33,395 bases of DNA, from the NCBI GenBank assembly GCA_015061665.1, contig SUWC01000033.1, positions 1 through 33,395 on the forward strand, read 5' to 3'. This DNA comes from Lentisphaerota bacterium (GTDB lineage: Bacteria; Verrucomicrobiota; Kiritimatiellia; RFP12; UBA1067). The position numbers and the translations under genes are program-made. Shown piece after piece: positions 3,362-31,950 of this stretch. Position 1 is the first letter of the stretch. Every line of letters begins with the position of its first letter. The notes under the pieces were generated by a model that searched no databases, was not told the origin of the DNA, and was given only the letters and a program-made list of their open reading frames with translations.

Positions 3362-3370
3362 ATTATACCA
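3362..3370 (-). promoter_or_regulatory. Extended -10 promoter of the phosphatase operon
   Basis: On the minus strand the sequence reads TGGTATAAT, then AGGTACC (7 bases), then the ATG at 3354. The TGn before TATAAT is the extended -10 element, which can replace a -35 box. Normal spacing puts the transcription start at or within two bases of the ATG. Confidence 0.75.
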
Positions 3371-3444
3371 CAGATGGTGGGTGCGCATGAAGCATACTTT
3401 CGTGTACAAATTTACGGGCCCGCACAATATTTTTCGCCTCCCCC

Positions 3445-3474
3445 TTGCGCACTTGTGCGATTTTTTGCTATACT
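3445..3474 (+). promoter_or_regulatory. Promoter of the tRNA-Thr/tuf operon
   Basis: TTGCGC at 3445-3450 is a fair -35 box, followed by an 18-base spacer and TATACT at 3469-3474, preceded by TGC as an extended -10. Transcription should begin around 3481, some 20 bases before the tRNA, and run through tRNA-Thr into tuf. Confidence 0.7.
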
Positions 3475-3500
3475 ATGTGAGTTTTCGCACCAAAAGTGTT

Positions 3501-3576
3501 GCCACTTTAGCTCAGTAGGTAGAGCACATCCTTGGTAAGGATGAGGTCGGCGGTTCGATTCCGCTAGGTGGCTCCA
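3501..3576 (+). tRNA. tRNA-Thr (anticodon GGT)
   Basis: A complete 76-base tRNA with encoded CCA. Acceptor arms GCCACTT and AGGTGGC pair, with discriminator T at 3573 and CCA at 3574-3576. The D-arm contains GCTCAGTAGGTAGAGC. The anticodon stem CATCC/GGATG encloses loop TTGGTAA, anticodon GGT, which reads ACC and ACT threonine codons. The T-arm is GCGG/CCGC around TTCGATT. It lies 44 bases upstream of tuf, an arrangement seen in many bacteria. Confidence 0.97.
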
Positions 3577-3620
3577 GTTCTGTGCGAGACGCAAGAAGAA
3601 ACAACTCACAGGAGTCAAAA

Positions 3621-4832
3621 ATGGCAAAGGAAACATTCGATCGCGGCGGTAAGCCGCACGTGAACGTCGGCACCATCGGCCACGTCGACCACGGCAAGAC
3701 CACTCTTACGGCCGCCATCACGCACGTGCAGTCCCTCAAGGGTCTCTGCGAGGAGATCAAGTACGACCAGGTCGCTAAGGCGTCCGAGTCCGCTGGCCGC
3801 CGTGACGCCACCAAGATTCTCACCATCGCCTCTTCGCACGTCGAGTACTCCACGGCGAACCGCCACTACGCGCACGTTGACTGCCCCGGCCACGCCGACT
3901 ACGTCAAGAACATGATCACCGGCGCCGCTCAGATGGATGGCGCGGTCCTCGTCGTTTCCGCCGTTGACGGCCCGATGCCCCAGACGCGCGAGCACGTCCT
4001 TCTCGCCCGCCAGGTCGGCGTTCCGAAGATCGTCGTCTTCCTGAACAAGTGCGACCTCGTTGACGACGCCGAGATGCTCGACCTCGTCGAGATGGAAGTC
4101 CGCGAGCTCCTTTCCAAGTACGACTACGACGGCGACAACGCTCCTGTCATCCGCGGCGCGGCCTATCCCGCGACCCAGGCGGCCTCCGCCGACGATCCGG
4201 CCTGCAAGTGCATCGACGAGCTCATGGACGCTCTCGACACCTACATCCCCGAGCCCCAGCGCGAGCTCGACAAGCCCTTCCTCATGCCTATCGAGGACAT
4301 ATTCTCCATCGAAGGCCGCGGCACGGTCGTTACCGGTCGCGTCGAGCGCGGCGTTGTCAAGGTTGGCGACGAAGTCGAGATCGTCGGTCTCAAGCCGACG
4401 GCCAAGACCGCTGTCACGGGCGTTGAGATGTTCCGCAAGCTCCTCGACCAGGGTCAGGCCGGCGACAACATCGGTACGCTTCTCCGCGGCACCAAGAAGG
4501 AAGACGTCGCCCGCGGCCAGGTTCTGGCGAAGCCGGGTTCGATCACGCCCCACACCGAGTTCAAGGGCCAGGTCTACGTCCTCACGAAGGAAGAGGGTGG
4601 CCGTCACACCGCGTTCATGAAGGGCTATCGTCCCCAGTTCTACATCCGCACGACGGACGTTACGGGCGACATTCAGCTCCCCGAGGGCGTCGAGATGGTC
4701 ATGCCCGGCGACAACGTCGAGATCACCGTCAAGCTCATCGCGCCTGTCGCGCTTGAGGAGAAGATGCGCTTCGCTATCCGCGAGGGCGGCCGCACGGTCG
4801 GCGCCGGCACGGTTTCGAAGGTAATCAAGTAA
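3621..4832 (+). CDS. tuf: Elongation factor Tu, 403 aa
   Basis: The GTPase that delivers aminoacyl-tRNA to the ribosomal A site. GTP-binding motifs are intact: GHVDHGKT at residues 20-27, DCPGHADY (switch II), and FLNKCD for guanine recognition. Domain 2 follows, with [13 protein letters not shown], and domain 3, with [15 protein letters not shown] and the ending AGTVSKVIK. The start is the ATG before AKETF, 6 bases after a CAGGAGT Shine-Dalgarno, not an upstream ATG at 3582 that would add 13 atypical residues. It is slightly longer than the E. coli protein (394), mainly through an insertion near [18 protein letters not shown] in the G domain. It shares the tRNA-Thr promoter. Confidence 0.99.
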
Positions 4833-4855
4833 TCGATTAGCTCTTCTGTGAGATG

Positions 4856-4903
4856 CTCCCCGCCAACGCCGGCAAACCTGTGGTCGGCTGGCTGAGGCGG
4901 GAG
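4856..4903 (+). other. Hairpin between tuf and rpmG
   Basis: CTCC-C-CGCC (4856-4864, one bulged C) can pair with GGCGGGAG (4896-4903), enclosing a GC-rich loop. No T-run follows, so it is not a standard terminator. It could be a processing site or mRNA stabiliser separating very abundant tuf message from the downstream genes. This is inference from sequence only. Confidence 0.35.
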
Positions 4904-4937
4904 GGCTCGATTTAGGAGAGCGTGGAGGAAGCGTATC

Positions 4938-5087
4938 ATGCGCGATCTGGTTATTTTGGCGTGCGGCGAGTGCAAGCGTAGGAACTACACTACTACGCGC
5001 AACAAGAAGACGATGGCGGAGCGCCTCGAGAAGGTGAAGTTCTGCCCGTTCTGCCGCAAGCGCACGAATCACAAAGAGACCAAGTAA
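4938..5087 (+). CDS. rpmG: 50S ribosomal protein L33, zinc-binding form, 49 aa
   Basis: A short basic protein of the large subunit near the E site. The sequence begins [17 protein letters not shown] and later has [10 protein letters not shown]. The two CxxC pairs (CGEC, CPFC) form the zinc-ribbon version of L33 (C+ type). Length matches the family. A GGAGG-containing stretch (4924-4928) lies 9 bases before the ATG. Position between tuf and tRNA-Trp/secE is the classic place for this gene. Confidence 0.93.
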
Positions 5088-30722: not shown

Positions 30723-30741
30723 GGGGCGGAATCTGGGAACG

Positions 30742-31641
30742 ATGAACGCAGCACCTCCAATTCTGCCGGGTCTTGATATCGTCGCCTGCGCCGGCGAGGG
30801 CGGGATGTCCACGGTTTGGAAGGCCTACTCGCACCGCCTCGGCATGTTTGTCGCGGTCAAGATCCTCAAGCCGGAGCTGATGTCCAACAGCGAGGACGTG
30901 GAACTCTTCGTGGGCGAAGCCGAGACGATGAAGAAGATCGACCACCCGGGGATCGTGAAGTGCTACGGGCTCGCGAACGCGCAGGGGCTCTGGTACTACA
31001 CGATGGAGTTCGTGGACGGATACAACTTCGGGTCGCTTCTCCAGAGGAAGCAGCATCTCAGCGAGGACGACTGCCTCGGGATATGCGAATCCGTTTCCGT
31101 GGCGCTAGACTACGCATGGAACACCCAAGGCATCGTGCACTGCGACATCAAGCCGGACAACATCATGATCAACACGTCCGGCGAGGTCAAGATAACGGAC
31201 CTCGGCCTGTCGCGCATCTTCGCCCAGACCGCCGCCGACCAGACAGCCGCCGGGGCCTCAGACCAGGTGCTCGGGACGCCGGCCTACATATCGCCGGAGC
31301 AGGTGTTCGGGGATGTGCAGATAGACTGCCGCGCCGACATCTACTCGCTCGCCGCCTCGCTCTACCACCTTTCCACGGGAAGGGTGCTGTTCCCCGGCAG
31401 GGACTCGTCCGAGATGATGCGCGCCCACTGCGACAACGCCGTTAGCGCCGCCGATCCGCGCACCTACAATCCGGGGCTGTCGCTCGGGTTCTGCCAGCTC
31501 CTGGAGGCGATGCTGGTGAAGGACCGTTCTGCCCGCATCCAGAGCTGGAAGGACGTCTACGCGATGTGCCGCGACGTGGAGTCGGGCGTCCAGTTCATGA
31601 TGCGCGACACAGCATTCCCGTCGTCGATGAAAATCGGCTGA
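30742..31641 (+). CDS. Eukaryote-like Ser/Thr protein kinase, 299 aa, soluble
   Basis: A stand-alone kinase domain with no membrane helix or sensor domain. The Gly loop is GEGGMSTVWKA (18-28), the ATP Lys is K40 in VAVKIL, and the helix C Glu lies in VGEAETMKKI. The catalytic loop is HCDIKPDN (133-140), with Cys instead of Arg in HRD, and the metal motif is DLG (153-155) instead of DFG. The activation segment ends GTPAYISPEQ, and DIYSLAASLYHLSTGR follows. Catalytic Asp, Lys and Asn are all kept, so it is probably active. An in-frame ATG at 30700 lies within the previous gene; the ATG at 30742 is preferred. Last gene of the argJ-tolB-signalling run. Confidence 0.9.
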   Translation: MNAAPPILPGLDIVACAGEGGMSTVWKAYSHRLGMFVAVKILKPELMSNSEDVELFVGEAETMKKIDHPGIVKCYGLANAQGLWYYTMEFVDGYNFGSLLQRKQHLSEDDCLGICESVSVALDYAWNTQGIVHCDIKPDNIMINTSGEVKITDLGLSRIFAQTAADQTAAGASDQVLGTPAYISPEQVFGDVQIDCRADIYSLAASLYHLSTGRVLFPGRDSSEMMRAHCDNAVSAADPRTYNPGLSLGFCQLLEAMLVKDRSARIQSWKDVYAMCRDVESGVQFMMRDTAFPSSMKIG

Positions 31642-31722
31642 GCCGCGCCAAGTCGGCATGAAACAAGTTTTCACCTTCCTCGCAGATTAGAACGAGGCGG
31701 TTGAACTATCTGTGTCTCCCGC

Positions 31723-31748
31723 ATGGCCCTCGGGAATGGCCCTGGGGA
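31723..31748. repeat. Two 13-base tandem repeats
   Basis: ATGGCCCTCGGGA (31723-31735) is followed directly by ATGGCCCTGGGGA (31736-31748), differing at one base. It lies in the 31642-31827 gap, together with a smaller palindrome, ATTTTG/CAAAAT (749-754 and 760-765 of the 31 kb block). Its role is unclear. Confidence 0.6.
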
Positions 31749-31774
31749 ATTTTGACCGCCAAAATAGTTGAAGA

Positions 31775-31792
31775 AACTGGTTAAAACCAGTT
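31775..31792. promoter_or_regulatory. Perfect palindrome, probable operator
   Basis: AACTGGTT (31775-31782) and AACCAGTT (31785-31792) are exact reverse complements around a central AA. The TGGT-N4-ACCA core resembles sites for GntR- or LacI-type repressors. It ends 23 bases before the TATAAT of the transporter unit, over the expected -35 region, so a repressor bound here could block RNA polymerase. No regulator gene of these families is nearby. Confidence 0.6.
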
Positions 31793-31815
31793 GCTCGAGG
31801 CGCGGTAATTTTGGT

Positions 31816-31821
31816 TATAAT
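31816..31821 (+). promoter_or_regulatory. -10 promoter element of the transporter unit
   Basis: TATAAT followed by ATACGC (6 bases) and an ATG at 31828. A weak TTGCTC (31791-31796) lies 19 bases upstream and overlaps the palindrome. Transcription should start on or near 31828. Confidence 0.72.
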
Positions 31822-31827
31822 ATACGC

Positions 31828-31950
31828 ATGAAAGTGACCAGACCAAACATCCGATCGGCTGTCTCCTGCTGCTTGTTGAGCGTGGCTGTATCCGTCACGC
31901 TTACGCGAAGCGGCAGAAAATTGTCCACAACAGAAGGAGACAAGAGATGA
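31828..31950 (+). CDS. Possible 40-residue leader peptide, coupled to the transporter gene
   Basis: An ATG 6 bases after TATAAT opens a 40-codon frame whose TGA (31948-31950) overlaps the transporter ATG. The predicted peptide has basic residues K2, R5 and R9, a hydrophobic run (AVSCCLLSVAVSVTL, 11-25) and a polar tail, like a small membrane peptide. It uses AGA for three Arg codons, unlike the CGC-rich neighbours, which weakens the coding case. Alternatively the region is simply a 120-base untranslated leader. No known leader peptide is recognised. Confidence 0.4.
   Translation: MKVTRPNIRSAVSCCLLSVAVSVTLTRSGRKLSTTEGDKR

Follow-up and report, generated by a model that had tools for sequence, protein, structure and literature searches.

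Near-start TATAAT boxes in the analyzed contig

The analyzed window is the complete 33,395-base contig C75 of a draft genome of a Lentisphaerota bacterium (G000; 3.44 Mb, completeness 92%), in which TATAAT boxes resembling -10 promoter elements lie immediately upstream of several start codons, a position that would lead to mRNAs with little or no leader. The window contains nine exact TATAAT sequences, and at seven of them an ATG follows after 6-10 bases (7, 6, 6, 6, 10, 7, and 6, respectively, exactly as given in a preliminary description of this DNA). For TATAAT-N3-14-ATG 0.15 matches were expected and none of 100 dinucleotide shuffles reached the seven seen, which bears out the earlier view that the repeated spacing is not due to chance. 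That description had counted a tenth, imperfect box besides the nine perfect ones, which could not be matched to any position. It had also assigned TGn, the extended -10 element, to eight of the ten boxes; we found TGn in register at seven of the nine exact boxes.

Pfam matches were obtained for six of the seven near-box frames. The alkaline phosphatase gene (1906-3354, minus strand) is preceded by TGG and TATAAT (3362-3367) followed by 7 bases and the ATG at 3352-3354. On the plus strand, the gene for a GFO/IDH/MocA oxidoreductase (8251-9636) has TGC-TATAAT 6 bases before ATG 8251 (element 8239-8253), and the transketolase gene tkt (9644-11584) has TGA-TATAAT 6 bases before ATG 9644 (9632-9646). 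The gene for a PTS EIIA-CBS protein (18138-19064, minus strand) shows TGC-TATAAT 6 bases from ATG 19064 (19062-19076). The HSP90 gene htpG (20604-22493, plus strand) differs in that TTG stands directly against the box, leaving no TGn, and in a distance of 10 bases to ATG 20604 (20588-20606), for which a leader of about 3-4 bases is predicted. The argJ gene (23162-24382, plus strand; ArgJ family) has TGA-TATAAT 7 bases before ATG 23162 (23149-23164). The seventh box (31816-31830 including the ATG, plus strand) precedes a 40-codon frame by 6 bases; its TGGT is one base off, so that TGn is not in register.

The -10 box of the transketolase gene overlaps the end of the preceding oxidoreductase gene, whose TAA stop codon (9634-9636) it contains. 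The transketolase unit thus begins inside what could otherwise pass for a single operon with a 7-base gap. The two remaining TATAAT boxes belong to leadered units: TGG-TATAAT at 19130-19135 (plus strand) lies 33 bases upstream of ATG 19169, and TGC-TATAAT at 13230-13235 (minus strand) 51 bases upstream of ATG 13178. No Shine-Dalgarno (SD) site was seen in either unit.

Genome-wide spacing of TATAAT and start codon

The spacing seen in the window recurs throughout the genome. TATAAT-N2-20-ATG was found 411 times, compared to 89 matches for a reversed-pattern control, and TATAAT-N6-7-ATG 167 times, compared to 10. The mean per spacing was thus 83.5 at 6-7 bases and 14.4 over the other 17 spacings (244 sites). 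The window is a rich patch in this respect, holding six of the 167 sites within 1% of the genome. TGn was present at 133 of the 167 sites, and the reversed control of TGNTATAATN6-7ATG gave no match. In 15 genomes of the genus, the own genome included, this extended pattern occurred 1268 times (control 7). At spacings of 13-18 the same genomes gave 643 hits over six spacings, i.e., 107 per spacing versus 634 at 6-7, and these hits include some second ATGs lying behind a nearer one.

The base preceding the ATG was also not random. Among the matches listed for four genomes, 105 had spacing 6; of these, 91 carried C at position -1, 10 carried T, and 4 carried A. In the own genome, the corresponding numbers were 38, 6, and 1 of 45 (drawn from 100 of 133 sites). 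By comparison, C preceded 37 of 135 SD-led ATG starts, 32 of 123 internal ones, and 29% of all ATGs of the own genome. A pyrimidine at -1 and a purine at +1 form the start-site signature described for Akkermansia and other gut species (PMC4782308). The signature C(-1)A(+1) coincides with the A of the ATG, from which we infer the likely 5′ end of the RNA. The preliminary description had placed the start of transcription at this A or one or two bases before it. At spacing 7, C preceded the ATG in 65 of 102 sites among the matches listed for the four genomes.

SD sites at near-box genes and at other genes

A 639-kb sample of the own genome with 443 called genes was analyzed for SD sites, a near box being defined as an exact TATAAT 5-12 bases before a candidate ATG. 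Only one of the 44 genes with a near box had an SD site, compared to four when the same genes were inspected fifty bases upstream. Of the 181 other first genes, 70 had an SD site (20 fifty bases upstream), as did 81 of the 154 internal genes (27 fifty bases upstream). The 16S rRNA retains GGATCACCTCCTTTCT at its end, and the anti-SD sequence (CCUCC) is therefore intact. A GGAGG-like site able to pair with it is thus not a near-box trait, though about half of the internal genes have one.

When genes were grouped by the distance of TATAAT, with AAGG included in the SD definition, SD sites were found in 0 of 20 genes at 6-7 bases and 2 of 13 at 8-12. Only two genes fell into the 13-18 bin, one of them with an SD site. 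Three bins farther upstream held 21 genes each, and SD sites accompanied 15 genes at 19-30, 12 at 31-45, and 7 at 46-74 bases. In G366, a genome of the same family (f1) outside the genus, 227 kb gave four genes at 6-7 (none with SD), none at 8-12, one at 13-18, and seven at 19-30, five of them with SD.

In the window, a contrast had been proposed between first genes lacking SD sites and operon-internal genes having them or using stop-start overlaps. The contrast is real there, but loose, as GGAG, GAGG, or AGGA was found at 15 of 27 other start positions inspected. These 27 starts were hand-chosen; two genes are represented by two alternative starts apiece, and the coordinate 19163 lies 6 bases before the true ATG at 19169.

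The box at 31816 probably serves an SD-led transporter gene

The frame behind the box at 31816 (31828-31950) ends overlapping the start of an MFS transporter gene (31947-33251), which has an SD site of its own, AGAAGGAG, immediately 5′ of ATG 31947. The frame had been listed as a leaderless gene, a claim that found no support: all 10 other homologue loci (nine genes; 11 loci were examined, one being the window's own) lack a frame that follows a near box and terminates at the transporter start. Probably the box is an ordinary promoter of the SD-led transporter gene, whose leader would measure about 119 bases, and ATG 31828 is coincidental. Besides the SD site and the missing counterparts, the lack of TGn in register speaks for this explanation. 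The spacing of 6 bases and the C at -1 match the leaderless pattern, however, and the end of the frame overlaps the transporter start as that of a coupled leader peptide would. Furthermore, in the homologue L305 (genome G004) one of the transporter's in-frame ATGs follows a TATAAT after 11 bases, and the transporter gene can thus be short-leadered in a relative. Because it is absent from the 10 other loci, the frame at 31828 is either a chance occurrence or a lineage-specific leader peptide. The L305 transporter represents a further gene that seems to change its mode of start between species.

Near boxes at a minority of first genes

The preliminary description had presented leaderless messages as the norm for first genes. 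In the 639-kb sample, an exact near box was present at 38 of 228 first genes, and near-consensus boxes raised this number to just 51. Shifting the positions by 20 and 45 bases gave exact boxes at 13 and 14 and near-consensus boxes at 22 and 21 of the 228 genes, respectively; these controls also catch true leadered promoters. What favours a general rule is the window itself, where an exact near box precedes five of the 14 called first genes, or six by hand, transketolase and htpG included; outside the window it was found at only 33 of 214. Since the boxes are confined to these numbers, and with SD sites at more than a third of the other first genes, leaderless initiation represents a strong minority mode, and it is very unlikely to be the normal rule for the first genes of this genome. 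Internal genes had near boxes in 3 of 148 cases.

Promoter type of near and leadered boxes

TGn was present at 38 of 49 near boxes and 44 of 66 leadered boxes, compared to 19 of 68 other TATAAT sequences and 119 of 2000 random positions. A -35-like hexamer with at least four of six matches to TTGACA occurred at 20 of 49 near boxes, 27 of 66 far boxes, 22 of 68 other TATAAT sequences, and 317 of 2000 random positions. The earlier statement that good -35 boxes are mostly missing thus holds for 29 of the 49 near boxes, but -35-like hexamers are nevertheless enriched over random positions. The promoter type is alike in the leaderless and the leadered mode: since TGn-TATAAT is also found farther upstream of other genes, the extended -10 element is not special to leaderless genes.

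These properties bear on the alternative that the TATAAT next to the ATG is part of a longer leader and binds ribosomes, being AT-rich, unstructured, or of the AT type, rather than serving as a promoter. Such an element would sit where the boxes do, just 5′ of the start codon, and AT-rich non-SD sites have been described in Bacteroides and the FCB group (PMC9581028). We consider this explanation highly improbable, because the near boxes have TGn, a feature specific to promoters, and more -35-like hexamers than random positions, because identical TGn-TATAAT boxes occur farther upstream of SD genes, and because near boxes are rare at internal genes.

A free expectation-maximisation motif search of the upstream regions of first genes was dropped, as it merged the -10 box with SD sites. 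Its motif share of 0.885 was meaningless, the control sets reaching 0.34-0.49 on three of four and 0.08 on the fourth. Explicit motifs were subsequently counted against shifted positions.

Near boxes and SD sites in homologous genes

Upstream regions of three of the window's genes were compared among relatives, many of which have ruminant gut sources in their isolate names (htpG, 45 loci). Regions were usable for 29 of 30 tkt loci, 29 of 30 argJ loci, and 41 of 45 htpG loci, 99 in total, two of which are the window's own; the six omitted loci stop short of the first codons of the gene. An exact near box was found in 42 and a near-consensus box in three of the 99 regions, and none of these 45 had an SD site in addition. 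Among the 54 regions without a near box, 38 had an SD site.

On quick trees, in which TAAAAT and TATACT were also scored as near boxes, the minimum number of state changes was 5 for tkt, 7 for argJ, and 12 for htpG. In phylogenetically independent pairs, near box and SD site never changed in the same direction; for htpG, eight such pairs gave a median p of 0.03 (range 0.016-0.063).

That the near-box starts are chance matches or misread starts, with the true starts located downstream behind SD sites, is scarcely credible. In its favour, called start and near-box ATG disagree in 17 of 44 genes. Against it, the control counts were 10 and 0 for 167 and 133 sites, and nearly all tkt and htpG homologues of the genus, whether near-box or SD-led, can be aligned starting with residue 1 at a common ATG.

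Two probable modes of translation start

The analyzed sequences point to two modes of gene start used side by side, one of them very probably being transcription from extended -10 promoters that yields messages with no leader or almost none. This interpretation is strongly supported by the spacing peak, the avoidance of SD sites, the C(-1)A(+1) signature, and the repeated switching between near box and SD site. The boxes would be normal promoters for the housekeeping sigma factor, of the extended -10 kind (TGn-TATAAT) and in some cases with a -35-like hexamer as well, at which RNA polymerase would start on the A of the ATG or a few bases before. This would give leaders of 0-1 base at spacings of 6-7 and about 2-6 bases at spacings of 8-12. 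The leaderless mRNAs would be translated independently of SD pairing, presumably by direct binding of the ribosome to the 5′-terminal AUG; binding of 70S ribosomes to a 5′ AUG is the mechanism given in a review (PMC9031893). The second mode would comprise operon-internal genes as well as first genes with a leader, and many genes of this mode have an SD site able to pair with CCUCC of the 16S rRNA. Switching between the modes during evolution apparently occurred via changes in the distance between promoter and ATG combined with gain or loss of SD sites.

Several observations weigh against this interpretation or narrow it. The simple gene caller placed the start at the near-box ATG in only 27 of the 44 genes, eight of the 44 have a same-strand neighbour less than 50 bases away, and the near-box ATG is backed by homologues in three genes only. 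Since spacings of 7 and 8-12 permit several start bases, some of the mRNAs may carry leaders of 1-6 bases. At spacing 6-7, GTG or TTG was found 244 times in the 15 genus genomes (control 15), so that ATG seems to be preferred but is not exclusive (1268 versus 244 as raw counts). In stretches of G366 the share of first genes with a near box was lower (6 of 82; shifted positions 3 and 2). Among the homologues, 16 of the 54 regions without a near box also lacked an SD site, and only htpG provided enough independent pairs, as tkt gave four, all opposite (p 0.125), and argJ one.

A more tentative idea, which could well be wrong, is that leader length in this clade takes two ranges, about 0-6 bases without SD or at least 13 bases often with SD, lengths of about 7-12 being almost excluded. 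Minor shifts of a single type of promoter would then flip the mode of start, and would have done so often, as for htpG with at least 12 changes among 41 homologues. If true, this clade of Kiritimatiellota would represent a natural experiment on why genes are leaderless. In any case, the causes and costs of leaderless initiation can be approached by comparison, as the clade includes dozens of closely related genomes among which a gene that appears leaderless in one species is SD-led in another. For annotation, programs relying on SD sites may put the starts of leaderless genes in the wrong place.

Relation to known leaderless systems

Akkermansia muciniphila is placed in the Verrucomicrobia. 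Its transcription starts were mapped by Cappable-seq, a method also applied to mouse caecum; 10% of the starts were leaderless, and a pyrimidine-purine (YR) motif was seen at -1/+1 (PMC4782308). Akkermansia resembles the bacterium studied here as a gut bacterium and in the YR motif; in contrast, the ends were measured there and are deduced here, for a different organism of a different class. Our results would thus extend leaderless genes, measured in Akkermansia, to uncultured gut Kiritimatiellota.

Leaderless (TA-led) genes, whose mode of start changes between related genomes, have been described in many bacteria (Zheng et al., 2011; PMC3160421). As in our case, their -10 box lies about 12 bases 5′ of the start, which was taken as leaderless and concerned promoter-proximal genes only; they are mixed with SD-led genes, and genes of common ancestry switch mode between relatives. 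The TG extension was found there in low-GC genomes, e.g., Lactococcus. Whereas TG is strong there at low GC and a weak TAnnnT core prevails at high GC, our sample with 60% GC keeps the full TGn-TATAAT. The string 'Verrucomicrob' is absent from the main text of that study. In Deinococcus-Thermus, a -10 motif with a specific spacing to the open reading frame drives leaderless mRNAs, as was tested by experiment, and about a third of the D. radiodurans genes are concerned (PMC12340547). The set spacing is shared with our genome, where it is read from sequence; TGn-TATAAT replaces TANNNT, and the share of genes is smaller. For bacteria in general, 21.6% of species are predicted to use leaderless transcription, a prediction cited in PMC9581028. 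No earlier report of leaderless genes in Kiritimatiellota was found in searches of an open-access library, in which one paper lists the class in an anti-SD table. Leaderless genes are of an already known kind, and what appears to be new is their occurrence in Kiritimatiellota.

Distribution among relatives and repeated sites

The extended -10 element next to an ATG was strong in families f1, f3, and f6 and nearly absent from f2, f4, and f5 of the same order. Family f3 and f6 genomes with the pattern gave 22 sites versus 0 in the control (G025), 41 versus 0 (G030), and 44 versus 1 (G028), while the counts in f2, f4, and f5 (two genomes each) were 0-3. Since gene calling was poor in the higher-GC genomes G030 and G026 (236 and 189 genes called in about 400 kb each), these were used for pattern counts only. 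In family f1 outside the genus, TATAAT-N6-7-ATG counted without TGn was present in part, with 133 versus 2 sites in the whole G366 genome, 81 versus 0 in G111, and 12 versus 4 in G126. In 288 genomes outside the order the counts, judged by eye, were often near the control, with a mild excess in some, such as G206 (52 versus 6) from a family elsewhere in the phylum. At the gene level, the exact TATAAT signal of G206 was weak and SD sites were at background; TAnnnT gave 13 and 11 matches at spacings of 6 and 7 compared to mostly 2-7 at others.

Two sets of repeated sites were observed in addition. In G012, nine listed sites have the form TGGTATAATTCACGCGATGAAACCCCATG, six of them identical (e.g., C7:12911-12939, C23:395-423, and C54:24146-24174), and look as if they belong to a repeated gene family or a mobile element carrying its own near promoter. 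In G000, TATAATATTGGGCATG is present on three contigs (C11:24217, C15:8478, and C23:1395), perhaps at paralogous genes.

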